Shown here: positions 52,600-61,187 of the stretch, piece after piece | Numbering within the stretch: position 1 is the first letter of the stretch | Layout of the letters: each line of letters starts with the position of its first letter | Origin: Kangiella aquimarina DSM 16071 | GTDB taxonomy: Bacteria; Pseudomonadota; Gammaproteobacteria; Enterobacterales; Kangiellaceae | NCBI RefSeq assembly: GCF_000374105.1 | Contig: NZ_KB893651.1 | Span: forward strand, 397,838-461,837 | Length of the DNA: 64,000 nt | Reading direction: 5' to 3' | Translations under genes and position numbers: made by a program | The notes under the pieces: generated by a model | The model's database searches: none | What the model was told of the DNA's origin: nothing | The model's input: the letters and a program-made list of their open reading frames with translations, nothing else

Positions 52600-53301
52600 A
52601 TGAATAACAATAAAACCAAGATTTGGGCTCTGATTCCAGCTGCTGGGATTGGTACTCGCATGAAGTCTGAATTACCCAAGCAGTATCTTGAAATCGATGG
52701 TAAAACCATTCTTGAGCACAGTCTTTCCAAGTTTCTTGAACATCCTTCCATTGATAAAGTTGTAGTCGCCTTACACCCTAATGACAATCATTGGGCAAAG
52801 ATCAAAATTGCAAATCACTCTAAAATTATCACCGTTGAAGGTGGTGCGACTCGAGCAGAGTCAGTGCTTAATGGTTTAAAAGCAATTCAACAGCAGCATC
52901 AGCAAGATGACTGGGTAATGGTGCATGATGCAGCCAGACCTTGCCTTGATGCAGGAAGCATCGATGCACTGATACAGGCAGGCAAAGAATCAAAACATGG
53001 TGCTATTCTGGCTATACCTTCAGTGGATACGGTTAAACTAGCAAATGCCAATCAAACGATCGACAAAACGCTTAACCGCGAACAGATCTGGCTGGCACAG
53101 ACCCCTCAATACTTTCCTGTGCAAATTCTGGCTGACGCCATAGAAACAGGATTGGAACAGGGTTTAGCAATCACCGACGAAGCCTCCGCCATTGAAGCTC
53201 AAGGCATGCATCCCGCGTTAGTCATTGGCACTCGTAAAAATATCAAAGTCACTCAGCCGGAAGACATGATGTTAGCATCGGTTTGGTTGGCGGGAATGTG
53301 A
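52600..53301 (+). CDS. ispD: 2-C-methyl-D-erythritol 4-phosphate cytidylyltransferase
   Basis: A 233-residue MEP-pathway enzyme making CDP-ME from CTP and MEP. The nucleotidyltransferase P-loop IPAAGIGTRMKSELPKQYL (near residue 13) and the HDAARPC motif are present. ispF is normally the next gene; here the histidine operon, its leaders and a gap of non-coding sequence separate the two. Confidence 0.96.
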   Translation: MNNNKTKIWALIPAAGIGTRMKSELPKQYLEIDGKTILEHSLSKFLEHPSIDKVVVALHPNDNHWAKIKIANHSKIITVEGGATRAESVLNGLKAIQQQHQQDDWVMVHDAARPCLDAGSIDALIQAGKESKHGAILAIPSVDTVKLANANQTIDKTLNREQIWLAQTPQYFPVQILADAIETGLEQGLAITDEASAIEAQGMHPALVIGTRKNIKVTQPEDMMLASVWLAGM

Positions 53302-53718
53302 TTCTTTATTGTTTTGGGTAGTCCTAAGTACACCCTTTAATCTTAAGTTACTCTTTTAATTAAAGGTCATTAGTTTAATTTGTTGTTTCGCTTTTCAGCG
53401 ACCTTCTTTTTCTTATTCGCGTAAGAAAAAGAAGGCAAAAAGAAGCGCGCCCCGAGATTGAGGTTTCGCTCTGCTCAACTTCCTTCGTATTCACCAAGCC
53501 ACTTAACGCACCGTAAAATACGTTCCATCCTTGGCCCGAATTTTACTATTCAAAACTTCCTGTTTTGAATTGCTATGTCTTGGTTACTACTCAGCTCAAT
53601 CTAAGGGGAATTATTGGAGCAAGCCTGTTAGGGGCCTTGGCTCACCAATTGTGGTGAGGGCTGGGTGTGAGCCCATACAAGCTACCATCAGAACCATTAT
53701 TAAATATTAATGACACTG
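53302..53718. other. Intergenic segment rich in inverted repeats, upstream of the his operon
   Basis: No gene is seen. Three hairpins occur: a perfect 14-bp stem CCTTCTTTTTCTTA/TAAGAAAAAGAAGG (53402-53435), a 9-bp stem ATTCAAAAC/GTTTTGAAT (53548-53570), and CTCACCA/TGGTGAG (53641-53658). GGCTCAC (53638-53644) can also pair with GTGAGCC (53666-53672), so folds compete. The first is typical of a dispersed bacterial repeat that I recall as common in proteobacteria. Confidence 0.5.
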
Positions 53719-53747
53719 TTGACTCTAATCACTGAATAGGTTTTAAT
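53719..53747 (+). promoter_or_regulatory. Probable his operon promoter
   Basis: TTGACT (53719-53724) and TTTAAT (53742-53747) are 17 bases apart, each matching consensus at 5/6. A start near 53754 would place the ATG at 53755 on the transcript end, so the ATG at 53767 may be the real leader start. Confidence 0.55.
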
Positions 53748-53754
53748 CAGCCTC

Positions 53755-53829
53755 ATGAATACAGTAATGACGCAAATTCACCACCATCACCACCATTCAG
53801 ACCGATTGGCGGTGTTGCTTTATGTGTGA
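53755..53829 (+). CDS. hisL: his operon leader peptide 1 (six consecutive His codons)
   Basis: A 24-codon frame reading MNTVMTQI-H6-SDRLAVLLYV, with stop TGA. The His codons are CAC CAC CAT CAC CAC CAT (53779-53796). An alternative start at ATG 53767 gives MTQI-H6..., closer to the E. coli HisL (MTRVQFK-H7-PD). It acts by ribosome-mediated attenuation: slow translation at the His codons under low His-tRNA frees TTGGCGG (53806-53812), which is exactly complementary to CCGCCAA (53859-53865), the 5' arm of the terminator that follows. The peptide itself probably has no other role. Confidence 0.85.
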   Translation: MNTVMTQIHHHHHHSDRLAVLLYV

Positions 53830-53853
53830 AATTTGCTGTTAAGAATTTCTAAG

Positions 53854-53883
53854 AAGCCCCGCCAACCAGCGGGGCTTTTTTTA
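53854..53883 (+). terminator. Attenuator terminator 1
   Basis: AAGCCCCGC (53854-53862) and GCGGGGCTT (53869-53877) form a 9-bp stem with CAACCA loop and T7. Its 5' side overlaps CCGCCAA, the partner of the antiterminator segment in leader 1. Confidence 0.9.
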
Positions 53884-53934
53884 TGCCTACAATTTTTAAA
53901 ACTGATAAATTAACTGATTAAACGAGACAAAAAG

Positions 53935-54021
53935 ATGTTTTTAAACAAGAGCTTACATCATCACCATCATCATACACTGCGCGAGCGACGGTGGTGGTGC
54001 TTATGTTTGAGACTTTTGTAA
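53935..54021 (+). CDS. his operon leader peptide 2 (six consecutive His codons)
   Basis: A 28-codon frame reading MFLNKSL-H6-TLRERRWWCLCLRLL and stop TAA. The His codons are CAT CAT CAC CAT CAT CAT (53956-53973). GAGCGACGG (53983-53991) pairs with CCGTTGCTC (54053-54061) over nine bases with one G-U, and the latter overlaps the 5' arm of terminator 2. GGTGGTGGTG (53990-53999) can pair with the His codons as the 1:2 protector stem. Sequence outside the His run is unrelated to leader 1 and its His codon choice differs. Its ribosome binding site is weak (ACAAAAAG). No promoter was seen between the two leaders, so they are probably in series on one transcript. Confidence 0.8.
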   Translation: MFLNKSLHHHHHHTLRERRWWCLCLRLL

Positions 54022-54048
54022 GAAACAGCTAAGACACCCAGATTTAAG

Positions 54049-54084
54049 AACCCCGTTGCTCCGAAAGGTCAACGGGGTTTTTTA
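54049..54084 (+). terminator. Attenuator terminator 2
   Basis: AACCCCGTTG (54049-54058) and CAACGGGGTT (54070-54079) form a perfect 10-bp stem, 11-base loop, then T6. It is 50 bases before the hisG start. Confidence 0.9.
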
Positions 54085-54133
54085 TTGGTTTAACGATTTG
54101 AAAATTTAAATTTTAGATATTAGGAGAAATGAC

Positions 54134-54982
54134 ATGGCTTTAAAAATGGTAATCCCAAAAGGTAAGTTGTATGACAAGGTTTCTGAGTTGCTGTCGGATA
54201 TTGGTCTGACGCTGGTCGGTGATAGCCGTAACTACCGTCCGCAACTGTTTGGCTGTGATATTGAGGTGAAGTTGCTGAAAAGTCAGAACATTCCAGAGAT
54301 GGTAGCGTTGGGCCAACACGATATTGGGTTTGCAGGTATGGACTGGATTCTGGAACAGGAGGCTGATGTTGAGGTGCTTGAGGACTTAGGATTTAACCCT
54401 GTGAAGCTGGTTTCCTGCATACCCGAAGAGTGGGATTGGAACGAAGTGAAGCAAAGGAAAATCATTGTCGCTTCAGAGTATAAGAAAATTTCGGCTAAAT
54501 ACCTCGATCAACTTGGGGTTCCGTATCAGTTACTTAGAGCTTATGGCGCGACGGAAGTCTTTCCACCTGAAGATGCTGACATGGTTATCGACAATACCAG
54601 TACCGGCTCAACTATACGTGCTAATCGTTTAAAGATTGTCGATACGGTTATGGAAAGCTCAACTCAATTTATCGCCAACAAATCCGTACTGGATGACCCT
54701 GAGAAACGTAAACAGATTGATGATCTTCTGTTGTTGATGCGCGGTGTCTTGAATGGTCGTAAGCGTGTGTTGCTGGAGATGAACTGTTCAGAAGACAGCA
54801 TTGACAAGGTTGTGGATTTGTTACCTGCAATGAGAGCTCCAACGGTTAGTCGCCTTTATAACGCTGATGGCTTTGCGATTAAAGCGGCGATTGAGCGTAA
54901 GTTGATTAAAGACTTATTACCGAAACTGATTACTGCGGGGGCGACCGATATTCTGGAAACGCCAATCCGCAAAGTGCTTTAA
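54134..54982 (+). CDS. hisG: ATP phosphoribosyltransferase (long form)
   Basis: A 282-residue first enzyme of histidine synthesis, condensing ATP and PRPP. It is the long form with an ACT-like C-terminal regulatory domain (about 205-282, IDDLLLLMRGVLNGRK... to ...GATDILETPIRKVL), so feedback inhibition by histidine is expected and no HisZ is needed. The PRPP segment is DADMVIDNTSTGSTIRANRLK. AGGAG is eight bases before the ATG. First structural gene after the two attenuators. Confidence 0.95.
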   Translation: MALKMVIPKGKLYDKVSELLSDIGLTLVGDSRNYRPQLFGCDIEVKLLKSQNIPEMVALGQHDIGFAGMDWILEQEADVEVLEDLGFNPVKLVSCIPEEWDWNEVKQRKIIVASEYKKISAKYLDQLGVPYQLLRAYGATEVFPPEDADMVIDNTSTGSTIRANRLKIVDTVMESSTQFIANKSVLDDPEKRKQIDDLLLLMRGVLNGRKRVLLEMNCSEDSIDKVVDLLPAMRAPTVSRLYNADGFAIKAAIERKLIKDLLPKLITAGATDILETPIRKVL

Positions 54983-55005
54983 GCAACAGGAAAAGGATTA
55001 GGGTC

Positions 55006-56703
55006 ATGAATATGCAAGAAACTCGAATAGAGCCTTTAAAGCTCGATTTTAATGAGCGGGCGGATCGATTCCCAGCCTGGCTTGATATGACTAAGCTAAC
55101 ACCGCAAAACTATTGGCGTTATCCGGACCAGACTGAACTCAAGCAGCAGATGAGTAATCAGTTTGGTCTGCTACCTGAGCAGATAATGGTGACTAATGGT
55201 GGTGATGAAGCGATTGAAATAATGTTTAAGGTTGCCAGTCTTGAGCAGAAAGAGTTGATCATTCCGATGCCGGCATTCAGTCAGTATCTGTCCGGAATTA
55301 AAGTATGGAACAGTAAAGCACAACTTATTCCAGCTCAGGATAATCAGTCAATCGATCTTGAATCGAGCCTCAGAGCTTTAACCAAGAACAGCATTCTGGT
55401 TTTAACCAGTCCCAATAATCCAACCGGTGAAACGCTTGCGTTGGATGTGATCAGAGATGCTTGCCGAAAAGCTAAAGAAAAGGGTGCGGAAGTATTTCTC
55501 GATCAGGCTTACATCGAATTTACGGGACAGGCTGAACAGTCACTTTCTTTGCTTGAAGAATTCGATAACCTCATTCTCCTCCGCACACTGTCAAAAGCAT
55601 ACGGACTGGCCGGTATCCGTTGTGGTTATCTGTTGGGTAGTGAATCCCTCATTAAACGTTTTGCAGATCGCAAGATGCCGTTTAATGTTCCTCGGCCTAC
55701 TTTGGAAATTGCACGTCAGGCATTCTCACCAGAAGCTCAAAATGATGTGGCTGATTTCTGCCAGCAAATTGCTCAAAACCGCGATCAGTTAGTGCAATTG
55801 TTACGGCAAAGAGGGTTGAACGTATTAGATAGCGAAGCAAATTTTATTCTGATTATCGATGCACCCGACCGTTTGAAATTAATAAAAGCAGCCTGTGAGC
55901 TAAATAATATTCAAATTAAAACCGATTTGGTGGGGCTTGAATTAAATAAGCAGGGTTTACCAGAGCAGTCAGCGATTCGTATTGCTATCCCTTATGAGTT
56001 ACAGCCATTACGCCAGGCACTTAGCCTTGCACTTCAACCGGAGCTCATCTGTTTTGATATGGATGGGGTTTTGATTGATACCAGCAAAAGCTATGACGCT
56101 GCCATCAAGCAAACGGTTGAGTATTTTGTGGGTACGCAACCCGCCCAACAGGCCATCGACACATTACGTTCACAGGGTGGATTTAATAATGATTGGGTAC
56201 TGACTTATGAACTGATCAAGCAAAACACCAATGATGCTGTTCCAGAGTATGAGCAGGTTGTAGAACAGTTTCAGACTTTGTATCTAGGCAGCAATGGTGA
56301 CGCAGGTTTGAACCAACTGGAAGAAGGTATTCTCAGCTCAGAGTTGTGCACACAGATTTTTGTGCAGAACAGTAAGTCAATAAAAACAGCAGTAGTCACT
56401 GGGCGCCCGCGTGGTGAGGCAGAAATTGGCTTAGGGTTGCTGGGCATTCGAAATACATTTCTGGTTAGTGATTGTGACGTTATTGAGTCTAAACCTGCAC
56501 CAGAGGGGATCAATCAATGCAAAGCTTATTATGGAGCCACTATCTGCTGGATGTTGGGTGATACTCCCGATGACATTCAGGCTGCAAAGGCGGCTGGTGC
56601 ATTAGCCATTGGCGTTAGCAATAAAGAGAACGAACAAAACTTATATCAAGCGGGTGCCGATCTGGTCGTGGCATCGGTGAATGAATTAGAGAGGTTGTTA
56701 TGA
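55006..56703 (+). CDS. hisC: HisC-HAD fusion: histidinol-phosphate aminotransferase with C-terminal phosphatase
   Basis: A 565-residue fusion. Residues 1-344 are a fold-type I PLP aminotransferase of the HisC type, with SPNNPTGE (about 135-142) and Schiff-base Lys197 in TLSKAYGLAGIRCGY. Residues 345-565 are a HAD-superfamily phosphatase with a cap domain: nucleophile Asp351 and Asp353 in CFDMDGVLID, VVTGRP, the Lys in ESKPAPEG, and LGDTPDDIQAA. The operon has no other histidinol-phosphatase (HisB is the short form), so the HAD part probably does that step. The stop TGA overlaps the hisB ATG (ATGA). Confidence 0.9.
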   Translation: MNMQETRIEPLKLDFNERADRFPAWLDMTKLTPQNYWRYPDQTELKQQMSNQFGLLPEQIMVTNGGDEAIEIMFKVASLEQKELIIPMPAFSQYLSGIKVWNSKAQLIPAQDNQSIDLESSLRALTKNSILVLTSPNNPTGETLALDVIRDACRKAKEKGAEVFLDQAYIEFTGQAEQSLSLLEEFDNLILLRTLSKAYGLAGIRCGYLLGSESLIKRFADRKMPFNVPRPTLEIARQAFSPEAQNDVADFCQQIAQNRDQLVQLLRQRGLNVLDSEANFILIIDAPDRLKLIKAACELNNIQIKTDLVGLELNKQGLPEQSAIRIAIPYELQPLRQALSLALQPELICFDMDGVLIDTSKSYDAAIKQTVEYFVGTQPAQQAIDTLRSQGGFNNDWVLTYELIKQNTNDAVPEYEQVVEQFQTLYLGSNGDAGLNQLEEGILSSELCTQIFVQNSKSIKTAVVTGRPRGEAEIGLGLLGIRNTFLVSDCDVIESKPAPEGINQCKAYYGATICWMLGDTPDDIQAAKAAGALAIGVSNKENEQNLYQAGADLVVASVNELERLL

Positions 56704-57296
56704 GTGACACAAAGAAGCAAAGCTCGATAGTTTCCATTGTCCGTCAGACAAAAGAAACGGCCATTCGTTTGGAGCTTAATGTTTATGGCCAACAGAAACT
56801 GAAGATCAATACTGGTCTACCTTTTTTCGACCATATGCTGACTCAGCTAGCATTGCACGCGGGTTGGGATCTCAACCTTGAAGCCAATGGTGATTTACAA
56901 GTTGATGATCACCACTTAATTGAAGATGTTGCGATTTGTTTAGGTCAGGCATTGCAACAGGCCTGGCGGGAGCAGGAGTCGATAACCCGATATGGCCAGC
57001 GTTTGTTGCCGATGGACGCCAGTCTGATCATGGTCGCGGTCGATGTCTGTGGACGTGGTTATGGCATTACCGACTTGCCTTTTACACGCGAGATGATTGG
57101 CAATATTGCGACCGAAATGTGGAAACACTTCTTCTATACCTTTGCGATTAATGCGCAGATAAGTTTGCACATTAAGGCTGAGTATTTTGACAATAATCAC
57201 CACTTAATCGAAGCCAGTTTCAAAGGACTTGCTTTTGCACTGCGGGAAGCACTTACTCCAAAACAGGGTGCTAATAGTTCTAAGGGTAGCTTATGA
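56700..57296 (+). CDS. hisB: Imidazoleglycerol-phosphate dehydratase (monofunctional)
   Basis: A 198-residue IGPD without the N-terminal HAD phosphatase domain found in enterobacterial HisB. The duplicated metal motif is present: DDHHLIEDV and NNHHLIEASFKGLAFAL. It converts IGP to imidazole acetol phosphate, using Mn2+. It overlaps hisC at the start and hisH at the end (ATGA both times), so translation is coupled along the operon. Confidence 0.96.
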   Translation: MSDTKKQSSIVSIVRQTKETAIRLELNVYGQQKLKINTGLPFFDHMLTQLALHAGWDLNLEANGDLQVDDHHLIEDVAICLGQALQQAWREQESITRYGQRLLPMDASLIMVAVDVCGRGYGITDLPFTREMIGNIATEMWKHFFYTFAINAQISLHIKAEYFDNNHHLIEASFKGLAFALREALTPKQGANSSKGSL

Positions 57297-57901
57297 GCGA
57301 CTCAATGGTGGTAGAAGTGATGCCAAAAGTTGGGGTCATCAATACTGGAGCAGGCAATTTGTACAGTCTGAACGGTTGCTTGAGGCGTATTGGCTTTGAA
57401 CCTGTAACCATTAACTCGCCAGCAGATATGCAAGGTAAGGATATATCGGCTTTGATTATTCCGGGACAGGGTCGCTTCGGTACTGTGATGTCAAACTTGC
57501 GAAACAGTGGACTCGATAAGCTCATCAGTGACTGGTATCAGGGCGACAAGAAAGTGGTCGGTATTTGTGTTGGCCTGCAGGTGTTATTTGAAGAGTCTGA
57601 GGAAGATCCGGGCATCAAGGGACTCGGAATTTTTAAAGGCAAGGTCACTCGTTTAAAAAGCCCAAAGCAACCAATGGTCGGTTGGGCTGATGTGGACTCT
57701 GAAAAAAACTGGCTGGATCAAACAACGCTGTATTTCGTCAACAGTTACGGCGTAACGGAAAGTGAGCAGGCTATAGCAAGTGTTACTTATGGCGAAACTT
57801 TTGTTGCTGCTATCGCGAGTAACCAGTTAGTGGCATTCCAATGCCATCCTGAAAAATCAGGGATCGCAGGCGAAGAGGTGTTAAAGCAATGTCTGAGTTG
57901 A
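57293..57901 (+). CDS. hisH: Imidazole glycerol phosphate synthase glutaminase subunit
   Basis: A 202-residue class I glutaminase that feeds ammonia to HisF. The catalytic triad is Cys92 (GICVGLQVLFE), His185 and Glu187 (FQCHPEKS). The oxyanion-hole strand reads PGQGRFG rather than the usual PGVGAF. It starts in the hisB stop codon; an ATG nine codons in is an alternative (MPKVGVINTGAGN). It overlaps hisF by 13 bases. Confidence 0.95.
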   Translation: MSDSMVVEVMPKVGVINTGAGNLYSLNGCLRRIGFEPVTINSPADMQGKDISALIIPGQGRFGTVMSNLRNSGLDKLISDWYQGDKKVVGICVGLQVLFEESEEDPGIKGLGIFKGKVTRLKSPKQPMVGWADVDSEKNWLDQTTLYFVNSYGVTESEQAIASVTYGETFVAAIASNQLVAFQCHPEKSGIAGEEVLKQCLS

Positions 57902-58692
57902 TCAACAAAATAGAGCAGGGTCTCAAATCACGCGTCATTGTCTGCCTCGATGTAGCACATGGCCGTGTGGTGAAAGGGGTGAATTTCAAAGGCCTGCAGG
58001 ACATGGGTGATCCAGTGGAACTGGCTATTCGTTATCAGGAACAGGGAGCCGATGAGATTGTGTTTCTTGATATCAAGGCAACCCTGGAACAACGAGCTAA
58101 TGCGTTGGAAACCGTTACCCGCGTTGCTGAAAACCTGTCGATACCATTTACCGTCGGTGGCGGACTGAATACCTACACTGATGTTGCTCAGTTTCTGAAT
58201 GCCGGTGCCGACAAAGTGGCGCTCAATAGTGCGGCTGTTAAAAAACCTGAGTTAATCGATCAGATTGCCAAAGGTTTTGGTTCGCAGTGTGTTGTTGTTG
58301 CAGTCGATCTTGATCAAGAAATTGCTGATGGCAATTATCGGGTCTATATCAATGGTGGCAATACATCCACTCAATTGGATGCCATGCAATGGCTTGCGGA
58401 AGTTGAGCAACGCGGCGCAGGAGAAGTCTTATTGACAGCCATGCATCGTGATGGAACTGGAATTGGTTTTGATAATGAACTGATGGGTAGAGTGAGCAAG
58501 CAATTGGGAATCCAGGTTATCGCATCCGGTGGCGCCTGTAAGCCTGAACACTTTACTGAAACGTTTCTGGCCGGTAGTGATGCTGCATTAGCAGCCGGTA
58601 TGTTCCATCGTGGTGAATTTACGGTGGGGCAGGTTAAACAAGAATTGTTCAATAACGGTGTAGCCGTTCGCATTGAAAAGCAAAATGATTAA
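57889..58692 (+). CDS. hisF: Imidazole glycerol phosphate synthase cyclase subunit
   Basis: A 267-residue TIM barrel that combines PRFAR and ammonia to IGP and AICAR. Catalytic Asp21 ([13 protein letters not shown]) and Asp140 (VVAVDLDQ) are present. In the following phosphate loop the usual S-M-D-x-D-G-T reads TAMHRDGTG, with His186 in place of the first Asp; the second Asp (188) is kept. It has a short N-terminal extension of about ten residues. Overlaps hisH. Confidence 0.93.
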
Positions 58693-58704
58693 AGGATAAA
58701 AGTA

Positions 58705-59943
58705 ATGTTAATTCCAAGTATTGATCTTCTCGATGGTAAAGCTGTGCAGCTACAGCAGGGTGATGCCTCTCGGAAAATTGTTGAAAAAGAAAACTTGTTT
58801 GAATTGCTGGAAGAGTTTTCTTTGTATGGAGAAGTAGCCATTATCGACTTAAATGCTGCACTAGGCAGAGGCGATAATAAAATGCTAATAAAGCAGCTGA
58901 TTAAAAAATTTCCGTGTCGCGTAGGCGGCGGCATTCGTAACTATGAAACGGCGCGGGACTACCTGTCTAGCGGTGCTAAGAAAATCATTCTGGGCACCAG
59001 TTGTCGCGAGGACTTTGTCAAAAAGCTACCTCGTGCTCAACTGATTTTTGCCATTGATGCCAAAGGCGATGATTGGGTCACCCACGGTTGGCAGTCTTCT
59101 TCTGATAATAAAGTGGCCGCCATGATTGATGAGCTACAGAGCAACTGCTCAGAGTTTCTTTATACCCAGGTAGAAAAAGAAGGCATGATGCAAGGTATCG
59201 ATCGCGAGCGTATTAAGCAGGTTGTTGAGCAATCGAAAATTCCAGTTACTGTTGCCGGGGGTATTACTGATCTGGATGATATTCAATTCATCAACAAGTT
59301 GGGAGCAAACAGTCAGCTAGGCATGTCGATATATACCGGCAAACTTAAACTGGATGAAGCTGTTATGGCTTGTCTGGATTTTGATAAGGCGCCATTAATT
59401 CCAACCATTGTTCAGGATATTGAAACCGATAAGATTCTTATGCTGGCTTATTCAAATAAGCAATCCTTACAGGCAGCAATGAGCAAGCGCAAGGGGATTT
59501 ATTACAGCCGTTCACGTAACGAATTGTGGGAGAAAGGACTTACCAGCGGCAATCAACAGCAGTTGATCAATATCGACTATGATTGTGATGGCGATACGTT
59601 GATCTTTAAAGTGCAACAACAAGGCAATGCCTGTCACTTTGATCGCTATAGCTGTTTTGCTGGTCAGTCTGCGGATTTTGATTTGGCGACACTCGATCGT
59701 GTTTTCGAACAGCGCATGCAAAGTCAGGAACTGACTAGTTTTAGTCAGAAGCTTCTTGCCAGCGATGATTTGCAGCAGGAGAAATTGCGCGAAGAATGCG
59801 AAGAGCTGATCGAAGCTAATGAGCAGGATGAAGTGCGCTGGGAAGCGGCCGATTTAATATTCTTTGCATTGGCACGAGCCAAATCTAAAGGCGTCGCAGC
59901 CAGCGATATCATCAATGAACTAGGAGCGCGTAATGGCGGATAA
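58705..59943 (+). CDS. hisAIE: HisA-HisI-HisE fusion (trifunctional)
   Basis: A 412-residue fusion of three activities. Residues 1-230 are HisA (ProFAR isomerase): Asp7 in IPSIDLLDGKAVQL, VGGGIRNYETA, and AIDAKGDDWVTHGWQ. Residues 232-325 are HisI (PR-AMP cyclohydrolase): MLAYSNKQSLQAA, DCDGDTLIFKV and the CHFDRYSCF metal site. Residues 330-412 are HisE (PR-ATP pyrophosphatase): EECEELIEANEQDEVRWEAADLIFFALA. HisI-HisE fusions are common; HisA at the front of the same chain is rare as far as I recall. It overlaps hisD by 11 bases. Confidence 0.92.
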   Translation: MLIPSIDLLDGKAVQLQQGDASRKIVEKENLFELLEEFSLYGEVAIIDLNAALGRGDNKMLIKQLIKKFPCRVGGGIRNYETARDYLSSGAKKIILGTSCREDFVKKLPRAQLIFAIDAKGDDWVTHGWQSSSDNKVAAMIDELQSNCSEFLYTQVEKEGMMQGIDRERIKQVVEQSKIPVTVAGGITDLDDIQFINKLGANSQLGMSIYTGKLKLDEAVMACLDFDKAPLIPTIVQDIETDKILMLAYSNKQSLQAAMSKRKGIYYSRSRNELWEKGLTSGNQQQLINIDYDCDGDTLIFKVQQQGNACHFDRYSCFAGQSADFDLATLDRVFEQRMQSQELTSFSQKLLASDDLQQEKLREECEELIEANEQDEVRWEAADLIFFALARAKSKGVAASDIINELGARNGG

Positions 59944-61150
59944 ATCTTTAATACAATGCGCTTCTAACTGGAAGCGTCCGAACCTGACTCAGTCACCAGA
60001 GCTGTTCCAGCAGGTAGCAAAATTATTAAAAGAGATTGAGACCGGTGGTGACTTGGCGATTGATAACCTCAGTAAGCGATTTGATGGTTATCAGCCTCGT
60101 AAAATCACGCTGAAACCTTATCGTGAGTACGAGCTTGAACCGCAACTACTAAACTCGATTGAGCAGGCGGCGCAACGTATTGAAGCTTTTTGCCAGTTAC
60201 AAAAAGACTCATTACAGCCCCAGCAGATTGAAGAAGATAGTGGCGTGTTTGGTTTTCAATATAGTCCAATTGAAGCAATTGGTGCTTATATTCCGGGGGG
60301 GCGTTTTCCGCTGATTTCCACCGCTTTAATGACGTTAATTCCAGCACGAGTTGCAGGCTGTGAACGTCGAGTAGCCTGTTCGCCATCAGTACACCCGGCA
60401 ATTTTAGCAGCTGCCTCTTTAGCTGGAGCGACTGAGTTCTGGCACATCGGTGGTGCCCAGGCGGTGGCGGCAATGGCTTATGGCTATCAAACGATGTTAC
60501 CAGTGCAGATGGTAGTGGGGCCTGGCAATCAATATGTCAACGTGGCAAAGCAACTGTTGCAGAGTCGAATCAAAATTGACGTTGCCGCTGGTCCCAGTGA
60601 ACTGCTGATTCTGGCCAATTCGCAGGCTAATCAGGAATGGCTGATTGCGGACATGGCGGCGCAGGCTGAACATGATCCGCAGGCACAAAGCGTACTGGTT
60701 AGCGATGATGTGGAATTTCTACAAGCCATTGAGCAGCAGCTTGTTGCTGATGATGAATTGAATACGCTTTTACAGAGCGAGCAGATTGTTTTATTGCAGG
60801 CCAATGACAGTGAGGCAATGATCCGCTTCAGTAATCGCTATGCGCCTGAACACCTCTTACTGGCGGATGAACGGATTTCAGCAGAAAGTTTGAAACATTA
60901 TGGTTCACTGTTCATCGGGCAAAACAGTGCCGTCGCTTTTGGAGATTATTGCGCTGGCCCCAACCACACATTACCCACTATGGGGAGCGCCAATCGTTCC
61001 AGCGGCTTATGTGTGCAGAGCTTCATGAATATCCAGTCCTACCAGCAAATTACCGATCAGGGCCGTCGACAATTGGCAGAGATTGGGCGCCCGCTGGCTG
61101 AGGCGGAGCAATTGGTTTGGCATGAACGCAGTATGCAGGTAAGATCCTAA
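59933..61150 (+). CDS. hisD: Histidinol dehydrogenase
   Basis: A 405-residue zinc enzyme that makes histidine from histidinol in two NAD+ steps, the last of the pathway. Motifs are [29 protein letters not shown] and AGPSEL. Zinc ligands appear as Gln and His in [11 protein letters not shown], Asp in [14 protein letters not shown], and a His near the C-terminus (LVWHERSM). The APEHL motif holds the catalytic Glu-His. It is last in the operon; in most gammaproteobacteria hisD follows hisG. A stem-loop begins at its stop codon. Confidence 0.95.
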
Positions 61151-61181
61151 CAACGAATTTTCTTTAAGCGCGATTGTTGGG
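61146..61181 (+). promoter_or_regulatory. Hairpin over the ispF ribosome binding site
   Basis: CCTAACAA (61146-61153) spans the hisD stop codon and pairs with TTGTTGGG (61174-61181), with one G-U. The 3' arm overlaps the GGGA of the ispF ribosome binding site. The fold could tie ispF translation to ribosomes finishing hisD. Confidence 0.4.
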
Positions 61182-61187
61182 ATGGTT

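Follow-up and report, generated by a model that had tools for sequence, protein, structure and literature searches.

The his operon of Kangiella aquimarina DSM 16071 is preceded by two successive units, each having the predicted parts of a histidine attenuator. As judged by comparison of sequences, this two-unit architecture is real, is kept across one genus and, within the studied sample, is restricted to that genus. The units are very probably two full his attenuators placed in series on one transcript, so that read-through would be multiplied, and the pair probably arose by duplication of the single leader typical of the family.

Organization of the his locus

The window, that is, the whole analysed stretch of 64,000 nt (G000:C2:397838-461837), comes from a genome of 2.68 Mb. 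Pfam domains and gene order define the his operon as hisG-hisC::HAD-hisB-hisH-hisF-hisA::hisIE-hisD, ending at 61150. Its first gene, hisG, was assigned from Pfam domains and the list of ORFs and occupies positions 54134–54982 on the plus strand, as do all elements of the leader region described below. Two genes are fusions: one (55006–56703) joins a HisC-like aminotransferase to a HAD hydrolase domain, the other (58705–59943) joins HisA to HisIE. The gene order is identical in the four loci from other genera that were examined (L040, L041, L044, L045). The operon is flanked by ispD and ispF in the window (53301–61182) and likewise in G016 (L042); this flanking was not found in G017 (L043) within the 16 kb examined. 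The minus strand between ispD and the his promoter carries a TwoAYGGAY RNA (RF01731, 53468–53605), which is the sole Rfam match at the gathering level in the window (44.9 bits with the cut-off of 43) and scores 42.6 in the relative locus L002.

The putative promoter (53719–53747) consists of the −35 box TTGACT (53719–53724), a spacer of 17 nt and the −10 box TTTAAT (53742–53747). Leader ORF 1 (MNTVMTQIHHHHHHSDRLAVLLYV, 53755–53829) contains its His codons at 53779–53796 and includes segment 2 (TTGGCGG followed by GTG, 53806–53815), whose candidate partners are the His-codon stretch or the 5' arm of terminator 1. The latter is an intrinsic terminator (GCCCCGC...GCGGGGC and seven T, 53851–53882) with pairing conserved in 19 genomes. 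Leader ORF 2 (MFLNKSLHHHHHHTLRERRWWCLCLRLL, 53935–54021; His codons at 53956–53973) starts after a spacing of 52 nt. Its segment 2 (GAGCGACGG followed by GTGGTG, 53983–53998) has the same choice between the His-codon stretch and the 5' arm of terminator 2, an intrinsic terminator (AACCCCGTTG...CAACGGGGTT and a T run, 54049–54083) indicated by both pairing and covariation. The two ORFs upstream of hisG, with six His codons each, and the intrinsic terminator downstream of each had been reported in the original prediction, and our analysis confirms their coordinates. Each leader is a short ORF with a run of cognate codons before the cognate operon, and each combines a predicted terminator with a mutually exclusive anti-terminator pairing, both conserved, as in amino-acid attenuators.

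Neither leader reached the cut-off of the Rfam family His_leader (RF00514, 49 bits): leader 1 scored 27.9 bits, and for leader 2 there was no match among those listed. The cut-off was reached in none of 14 related loci either. Therefore we took the comparative route.

Pairings and predicted folds

The original prediction paired TTGGCGG (53806–53812) with CCGCCAA (53859–53865) in leader 1 and GAGCGACGG (53983–53991) with CCGTTGCTC (54053–54061) in leader 2. Both pairings stand, but their extent was underestimated, as either duplex is longer and continues with more pairs past a bulge. For the anti-terminator duplex, RNAduplex predicts −14.7 (leader 1) and −23.2 kcal/mol (leader 2). To control for chance, the stretch from the His codons to the terminator was subjected to 500 dinucleotide shuffles. 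For the duplex of the window, 9 of 500 shuffles were as good in leader 1 and none in leader 2. The 19 genomes, which are related and hence not independent, gave medians of 5 (leader 1, range 0–35) and 1 (leader 2, range 0–31) per 500 shuffles.

When the leaders are folded separately, the minimum free energy (MFE) structure of each is a long hairpin that takes in the His codons, with the terminator downstream of it. Folding of both leaders, proposed earlier as a check, gave structures far better than those of dinucleotide shuffles (z = −5.5 for leader 1 and −5.2 for leader 2; 0 of 200 shuffles in each case). In the fold of the joint transcript, leaders 1 and 2 form separate domains except for a few extra pairs.

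Conservation within Kangiella

The genus sample comprised 20 genomes, 19 of them with hisG; the twentieth genome is 55% complete. Both leaders and both terminators are present in all 19 genomes with hisG. Under a strict rule (four His within seven codons of a short ORF), two leaders are found in 18 of the 19, the exception being L018, where leader 2 has HHH. The number of His codons is also lower in leader 2 of L024 (HQHHH). The outcome that had been named as damaging to the original prediction, that leader 2 would be missing from all close relatives, did not occur: the search of relatives for two His-rich frames before hisG found both in 19 of 19 genus loci.

CAT and CAC interchange at 11 of the 12 aligned His codon positions while His is retained, a pattern compatible with selection on a translated peptide. 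In leader 1, each of the six positions has His in 14–19 of the 19 genomes. In leader 2, five positions have His in 17–19 genomes; the first one is an alignment gap in 11 genomes and reads CAT in the remaining eight. As to codon usage, leader 2 is CAT-rich (82 CAT and 19 CAC over 19 loci) compared with leader 1 (54 and 48, respectively); 12 genes of the window contain 35 CAT and 27 CAC.

The pairing of the terminators is almost complete, with 99.3% of alignment cells paired in terminator 1 and 99.5% in terminator 2 over the 19 genomes. Terminator 1 has two pairs with double changes, a result equalled by 2 of 500 shuffles. In terminator 2, one pair covaries from C-G to A-U in six genomes and to G-C in one, and the covariation score was reached by none of 500 shuffles. 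For the anti-terminators, 85.8% (leader 1) and 95.8% (leader 2) of cells are paired, versus 33–64% and 34–57%, respectively, when the strands are slid by 1–3 columns. No covariation was detected in the anti-terminators, column shuffles pairing equally well or better in 481 of 500 cases (leader 1) and 453 of 500 (leader 2), because the pairs are almost invariant. L024 preserves the leader 1 pairing through other letters, GGGGCT with AGCCCC.

Promoter and translation starts

A promoter-like site before leader 1 matches TTGACA-17-TTTAAT at 9–11 of 12 positions in 18 of the 19 genus genomes and at 7 of 12 in L013. Because the −10 box of the best site ends 6–8 nt upstream of the first ATG (19 of 19 genomes), leader 1 is probably a leaderless ORF, the predicted transcript start being at or beside its ATG. 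By eye, several sister loci have a −10 box of the TATACAA type immediately upstream of the leader ATG. The gap between terminator 1 and the second ATG varies from about 22 to 67 nt across the genus genomes. No conserved promoter was found between the leaders in the 19 genomes; the best inter-leader sites have 6–9 matches of 12, and their position is not conserved. In five genomes with a gap of 22–28 nt, the −35 box of the best gap site would fall within terminator 1. Since the promoter is conserved only before leader 1, the units should act in series, on one transcript. Shine-Dalgarno pairing is absent or weak for leader 1 (+1.3 to −3.2 kcal/mol) and weak for leader 2 (−0.7 to −5.4 kcal/mol), compared with −5.9 to −7.7 kcal/mol for hisG.

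Switching modelled with a ribosome mask

The ribosome was represented by a 28-nt mask on the predicted folds. When this mask covers the His codons, upstream pairing of nascent segment 3 is seen in all 19 genomes, both in leader 1 (5–8 of 8 positions) and in leader 2 (6–8 of 8), except for one of six mask positions in leader 2 of L004. With no mask, segment 3 of leader 1 is free of upstream pairs in 14 of 19 genomes, and that of leader 2 in only 6 of 19. The mask on the stop codon leaves at most four nascent pairs in all 19 genomes in leader 1; in leader 2, at least five nascent pairs are formed in 10 of 19, that is, segment 2 is left free. In the full-length MFE folds, the terminator is retained in nearly all masked states, with the exceptions of L017 (leader 1) and L006, L007 and L009 (leader 2). 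Given that the full-length fold at equilibrium favours the terminator, anti-termination must be kinetic.

In this model, leader 1 behaves as expected for a four-segment attenuator. The modelled off state of leader 2 is less clean, and release of the ribosome may be required: as segment 2 is free in 10 of 19 genomes with the ribosome at the stop codon, and segment 3 is often paired without a ribosome, the off state would need ribosome release and formation of the 1:2 hairpin.

Proposed mechanism

These data strongly suggest that the two units serve as serial gates. A single transcript would begin at or beside the ATG of leader 1. As the sequence shows, each unit comprises a His-rich ORF and the alternative pairings 1:2 (a hairpin including the His codons), 2:3 (the anti-terminator) and 3:4 (the intrinsic terminator). 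When charged tRNA-His is ample, the ribosome would clear the His codons and RNA polymerase would halt at terminator 1; the polymerases escaping it would reach the second, independently translated unit, and most of them would halt at terminator 2. When charged tRNA-His is scarce, the ribosome would stall on the His codons and segment 2 would capture segment 3 before segment 4 is made, so that the polymerase would pass the first gate, then the second one, and enter hisG. The output would be the product of two read-through probabilities, with less leak and a steeper response than those of one trp-like unit; we infer that the second unit lowers the leak. The most detailed form of this model, to which we incline only slightly, is a genus-wide cascade responding twice to the same signal, with a leaderless unit 1 and an internal start in unit 2, where two trp-type switches are multiplied to yield low leak and high gain.

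Alternative explanations

Resemblance to attenuators arising by chance has a negligible probability. Runs of His codons do arise in this way: of the four places with at least five consecutive His codons in the 2.68-Mb genome, two are antisense to long open frames. The other two are the leaders themselves, and conservation of both leaders in 19 of 19 genomes already refutes this explanation. If leader 2 had its own promoter, some transcripts would meet only the second attenuator and control would not be multiplicative. Candidate sites for such a promoter exist, namely TACAAT at the start of the gap in the window (53889–53894), where the best gap site has 7 matches of 12, and the gap sites with 9 of 12 in L007 and L008. 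However, the inter-leader sites, with their 6–9 matches, have no fixed position, whereas the upstream promoter has 9–11 matches in 18 of 19 genomes, and in the five short-gap genomes the −35 box would have to lie inside terminator 1. Parallel promoters are hence quite improbable.

We also regard it as unlikely that one unit alone regulates the operon, the other being a relic or a mere insulating terminator. The reduced His runs in leader 2 of L018 and L024 and the poor stop-codon geometry of leader 2 in 10 of 19 genomes would agree with such a reading, but a relic is expected to lose one of its parts, and the ORF, His codons, anti-terminator and terminator are kept in both units in all 19 genomes. 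The predicted leaderless start of leader 1, similar to that of rnTrpL from Sinorhizobium meliloti (PMC7298713), suggests another role for this unit: an RNA of about 125 nt ending at terminator 1, or the leaderless peptide, could act in trans, leaving leader 2 as the only control in cis. Since leader 1 owns a complete anti-terminator/terminator switch, we consider this very improbable. Two attenuators in series remain the preferred explanation.

Distribution beyond the genus and origin of the pair

NCBI assigns Kangiella to the family Kangiellaceae within the Gammaproteobacteria. In other genera of the family, 17 genomes contain hisG; a single His leader is present in 15 of them and a degenerate one in L034 and L037, and no genome has a pair. 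By eye, the single leader of L034 and L037 reads HQTHRH, and its terminator is retained. The strict count over the 17 family loci and three other loci of the same order gave 18 with one leader, two with none and zero with two. Among 80 further stretches upstream of hisG (79 from the order and one from the class), 74 have one leader, six have none (five from the order and the one from the class), and none has two. No adjacent pair of leaders was found in 30 more loci of the order, which brings the total to 110 non-sister stretches upstream of hisG. The order-level sample consists of 109 stretches from 108 genomes, out of 182 genomes of the order with a match. At the class level, eight of 30 loci have a His cluster somewhere in the locus (one each) and 22 have none; these loci were not counted as evidence of absence. 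Two or more His clusters share a strand in the order-level loci L197 and L211, but the extra ones are separated from the leader by at least some 700 nt and make no tandem pair. In L196 and L206, the second His cluster is on the opposite strand.

A genome-wide pattern for tandem His runs yielded at least 116 stretches; it recovers only 10 of the 19 genus loci and is thus insensitive, so that the survey of regions upstream of hisG is better. The pattern stretches (L046–L161) contain 14 pairs of short ORFs. The peptides of L096, L121 and L145 are those of the genus loci L016, L017 and L013, respectively; the other 11 pairs were set aside, L094 from its context and the rest by their peptides alone. 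In all 14 pattern loci viewed in their context, L094 among them, the match overlaps an open frame of at least 117 codons on one of the two strands.

With the second leader present in 19 of 19 genus loci and in none of the 17 sister loci, it looks like a genus-level innovation. The original view that the leaders are not a recent duplication is upheld; yet both units resemble the single leader of the sister genera, which makes an old duplication likely. An HMM built from 20 single leaders (17 from the family and three from the order) gave 21.8–46.3 bits for leader 1 and 13.3–34.6 bits for leader 2, leader 1 scoring higher in 18 of 19 genomes. On the 80 other upstream stretches, this HMM had a match in 79, with a median of 8.4 and a maximum of 21.7 bits; the lower scores of leader 2 thus overlap the top of the range of unrelated his leaders. 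Leader 1 likely descends directly from the family leader; leader 2 is probably an old duplicate that arose in the Kangiella ancestor, although the resemblance of the two leaders might instead reflect convergence.

A palindrome, TTGTATATACAA (or its variants TGTATATACA / TTGTCTATACAA), is located about 270–315 nt before hisG in L019, L020, L022, L025, L027, L029, L031 and L039 and may be an operator. It occurs upstream of the his promoter in 8 of the 20 sister and other loci versus 1 of 19 in Kangiella. In some loci it adjoins a divergent gene that by eye resembles aroA. The idea that a repressor had been swapped for the second leader was dropped on account of this neighbouring gene. Repeated CCATGGATGG motifs are seen between the his terminator and hisG in L034 and L036.

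Comparison with known systems

The enteric his leader (RF00514) likewise has a His-rich ORF, alternative hairpins and an intrinsic terminator before hisG, but forms one unit, whereas Kangiella has two, with four segments each by predicted folds. The his design of Salmonella includes an extra hairpin (PMC1183508); the MFE folds of both Kangiella leaders have one long hairpin and then the terminator. According to the modelling in that paper, as given in its available part, basal read-through is high for trp, and the extra hairpin is named as the reason why the his leader of S. typhimurium leaks little. The 1:2, 2:3 and 3:4 pairings driven by ribosome position are shared with the trp-type four-segment attenuator, the differences being the His codons and the presence of two units in series. 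In Sinorhizobium meliloti, the trpL transcript starts with the leader ATG, as predicted for leader 1, but a single leader ORF is described, for trp rather than his; rnTrpL/peTrpL are reported to act in trans (PMC7298713).

The leader of Salmonella mgtCBR (PMC3641672) is similar in that two attenuators with short ORFs share the leader of a single operon. It senses two different signals (ATP and proline), whereas both Kangiella units carry His runs and hence do not form a two-signal leader. Further, the mgtCBR structures are described as unlike intrinsic terminators, in which both Kangiella units end. The available text of the same paper presents a single attenuator as the normal arrangement. 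RNA units of one type are also found in tandem before one gene or operon in Bacillota, where two or three T-boxes precede thrS genes (PMC12452182), but T-boxes are riboswitches binding tRNA and not leader-peptide attenuators dependent on the ribosome. A second terminator in tandem is reported for the rimP leader (PMC2965389). The his attenuators of several groups are covered in PMC9413887, whose available text contains no mention of a tandem pair. A further paper that mentions tandem attenuators (PMC4974804) was rejected, those in its accessible part being the ones of Mg2+ transporters only. In the open-licence literature searched, as far as its available text goes, we found no description of two leader-peptide attenuators for the same amino acid in series, and no paper on both Kangiella and histidine biosynthesis. 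Tandem arrangement as such has precedents in mgtCBR, whose attenuators sense different signals, and in the T-boxes; what is new is the predicted ribosome-mediated pair with the same signal.

The effect of serial gates on leak and steepness can be tested directly on the conserved same-signal pair, the sister genera with their one unit serving as a natural control. If the proposed mechanism is true, it provides a design for layered RNA control. The cascade would then attain by multiplication what the his leader of Salmonella achieves with an extra hairpin, namely low leak and high gain, and his expression in Kangiella would also depend on two separate events of ribosome loading. Kangiella would thus represent a second evolutionary route to a tightly controlled his operon, beside the extra hairpin of Salmonella.
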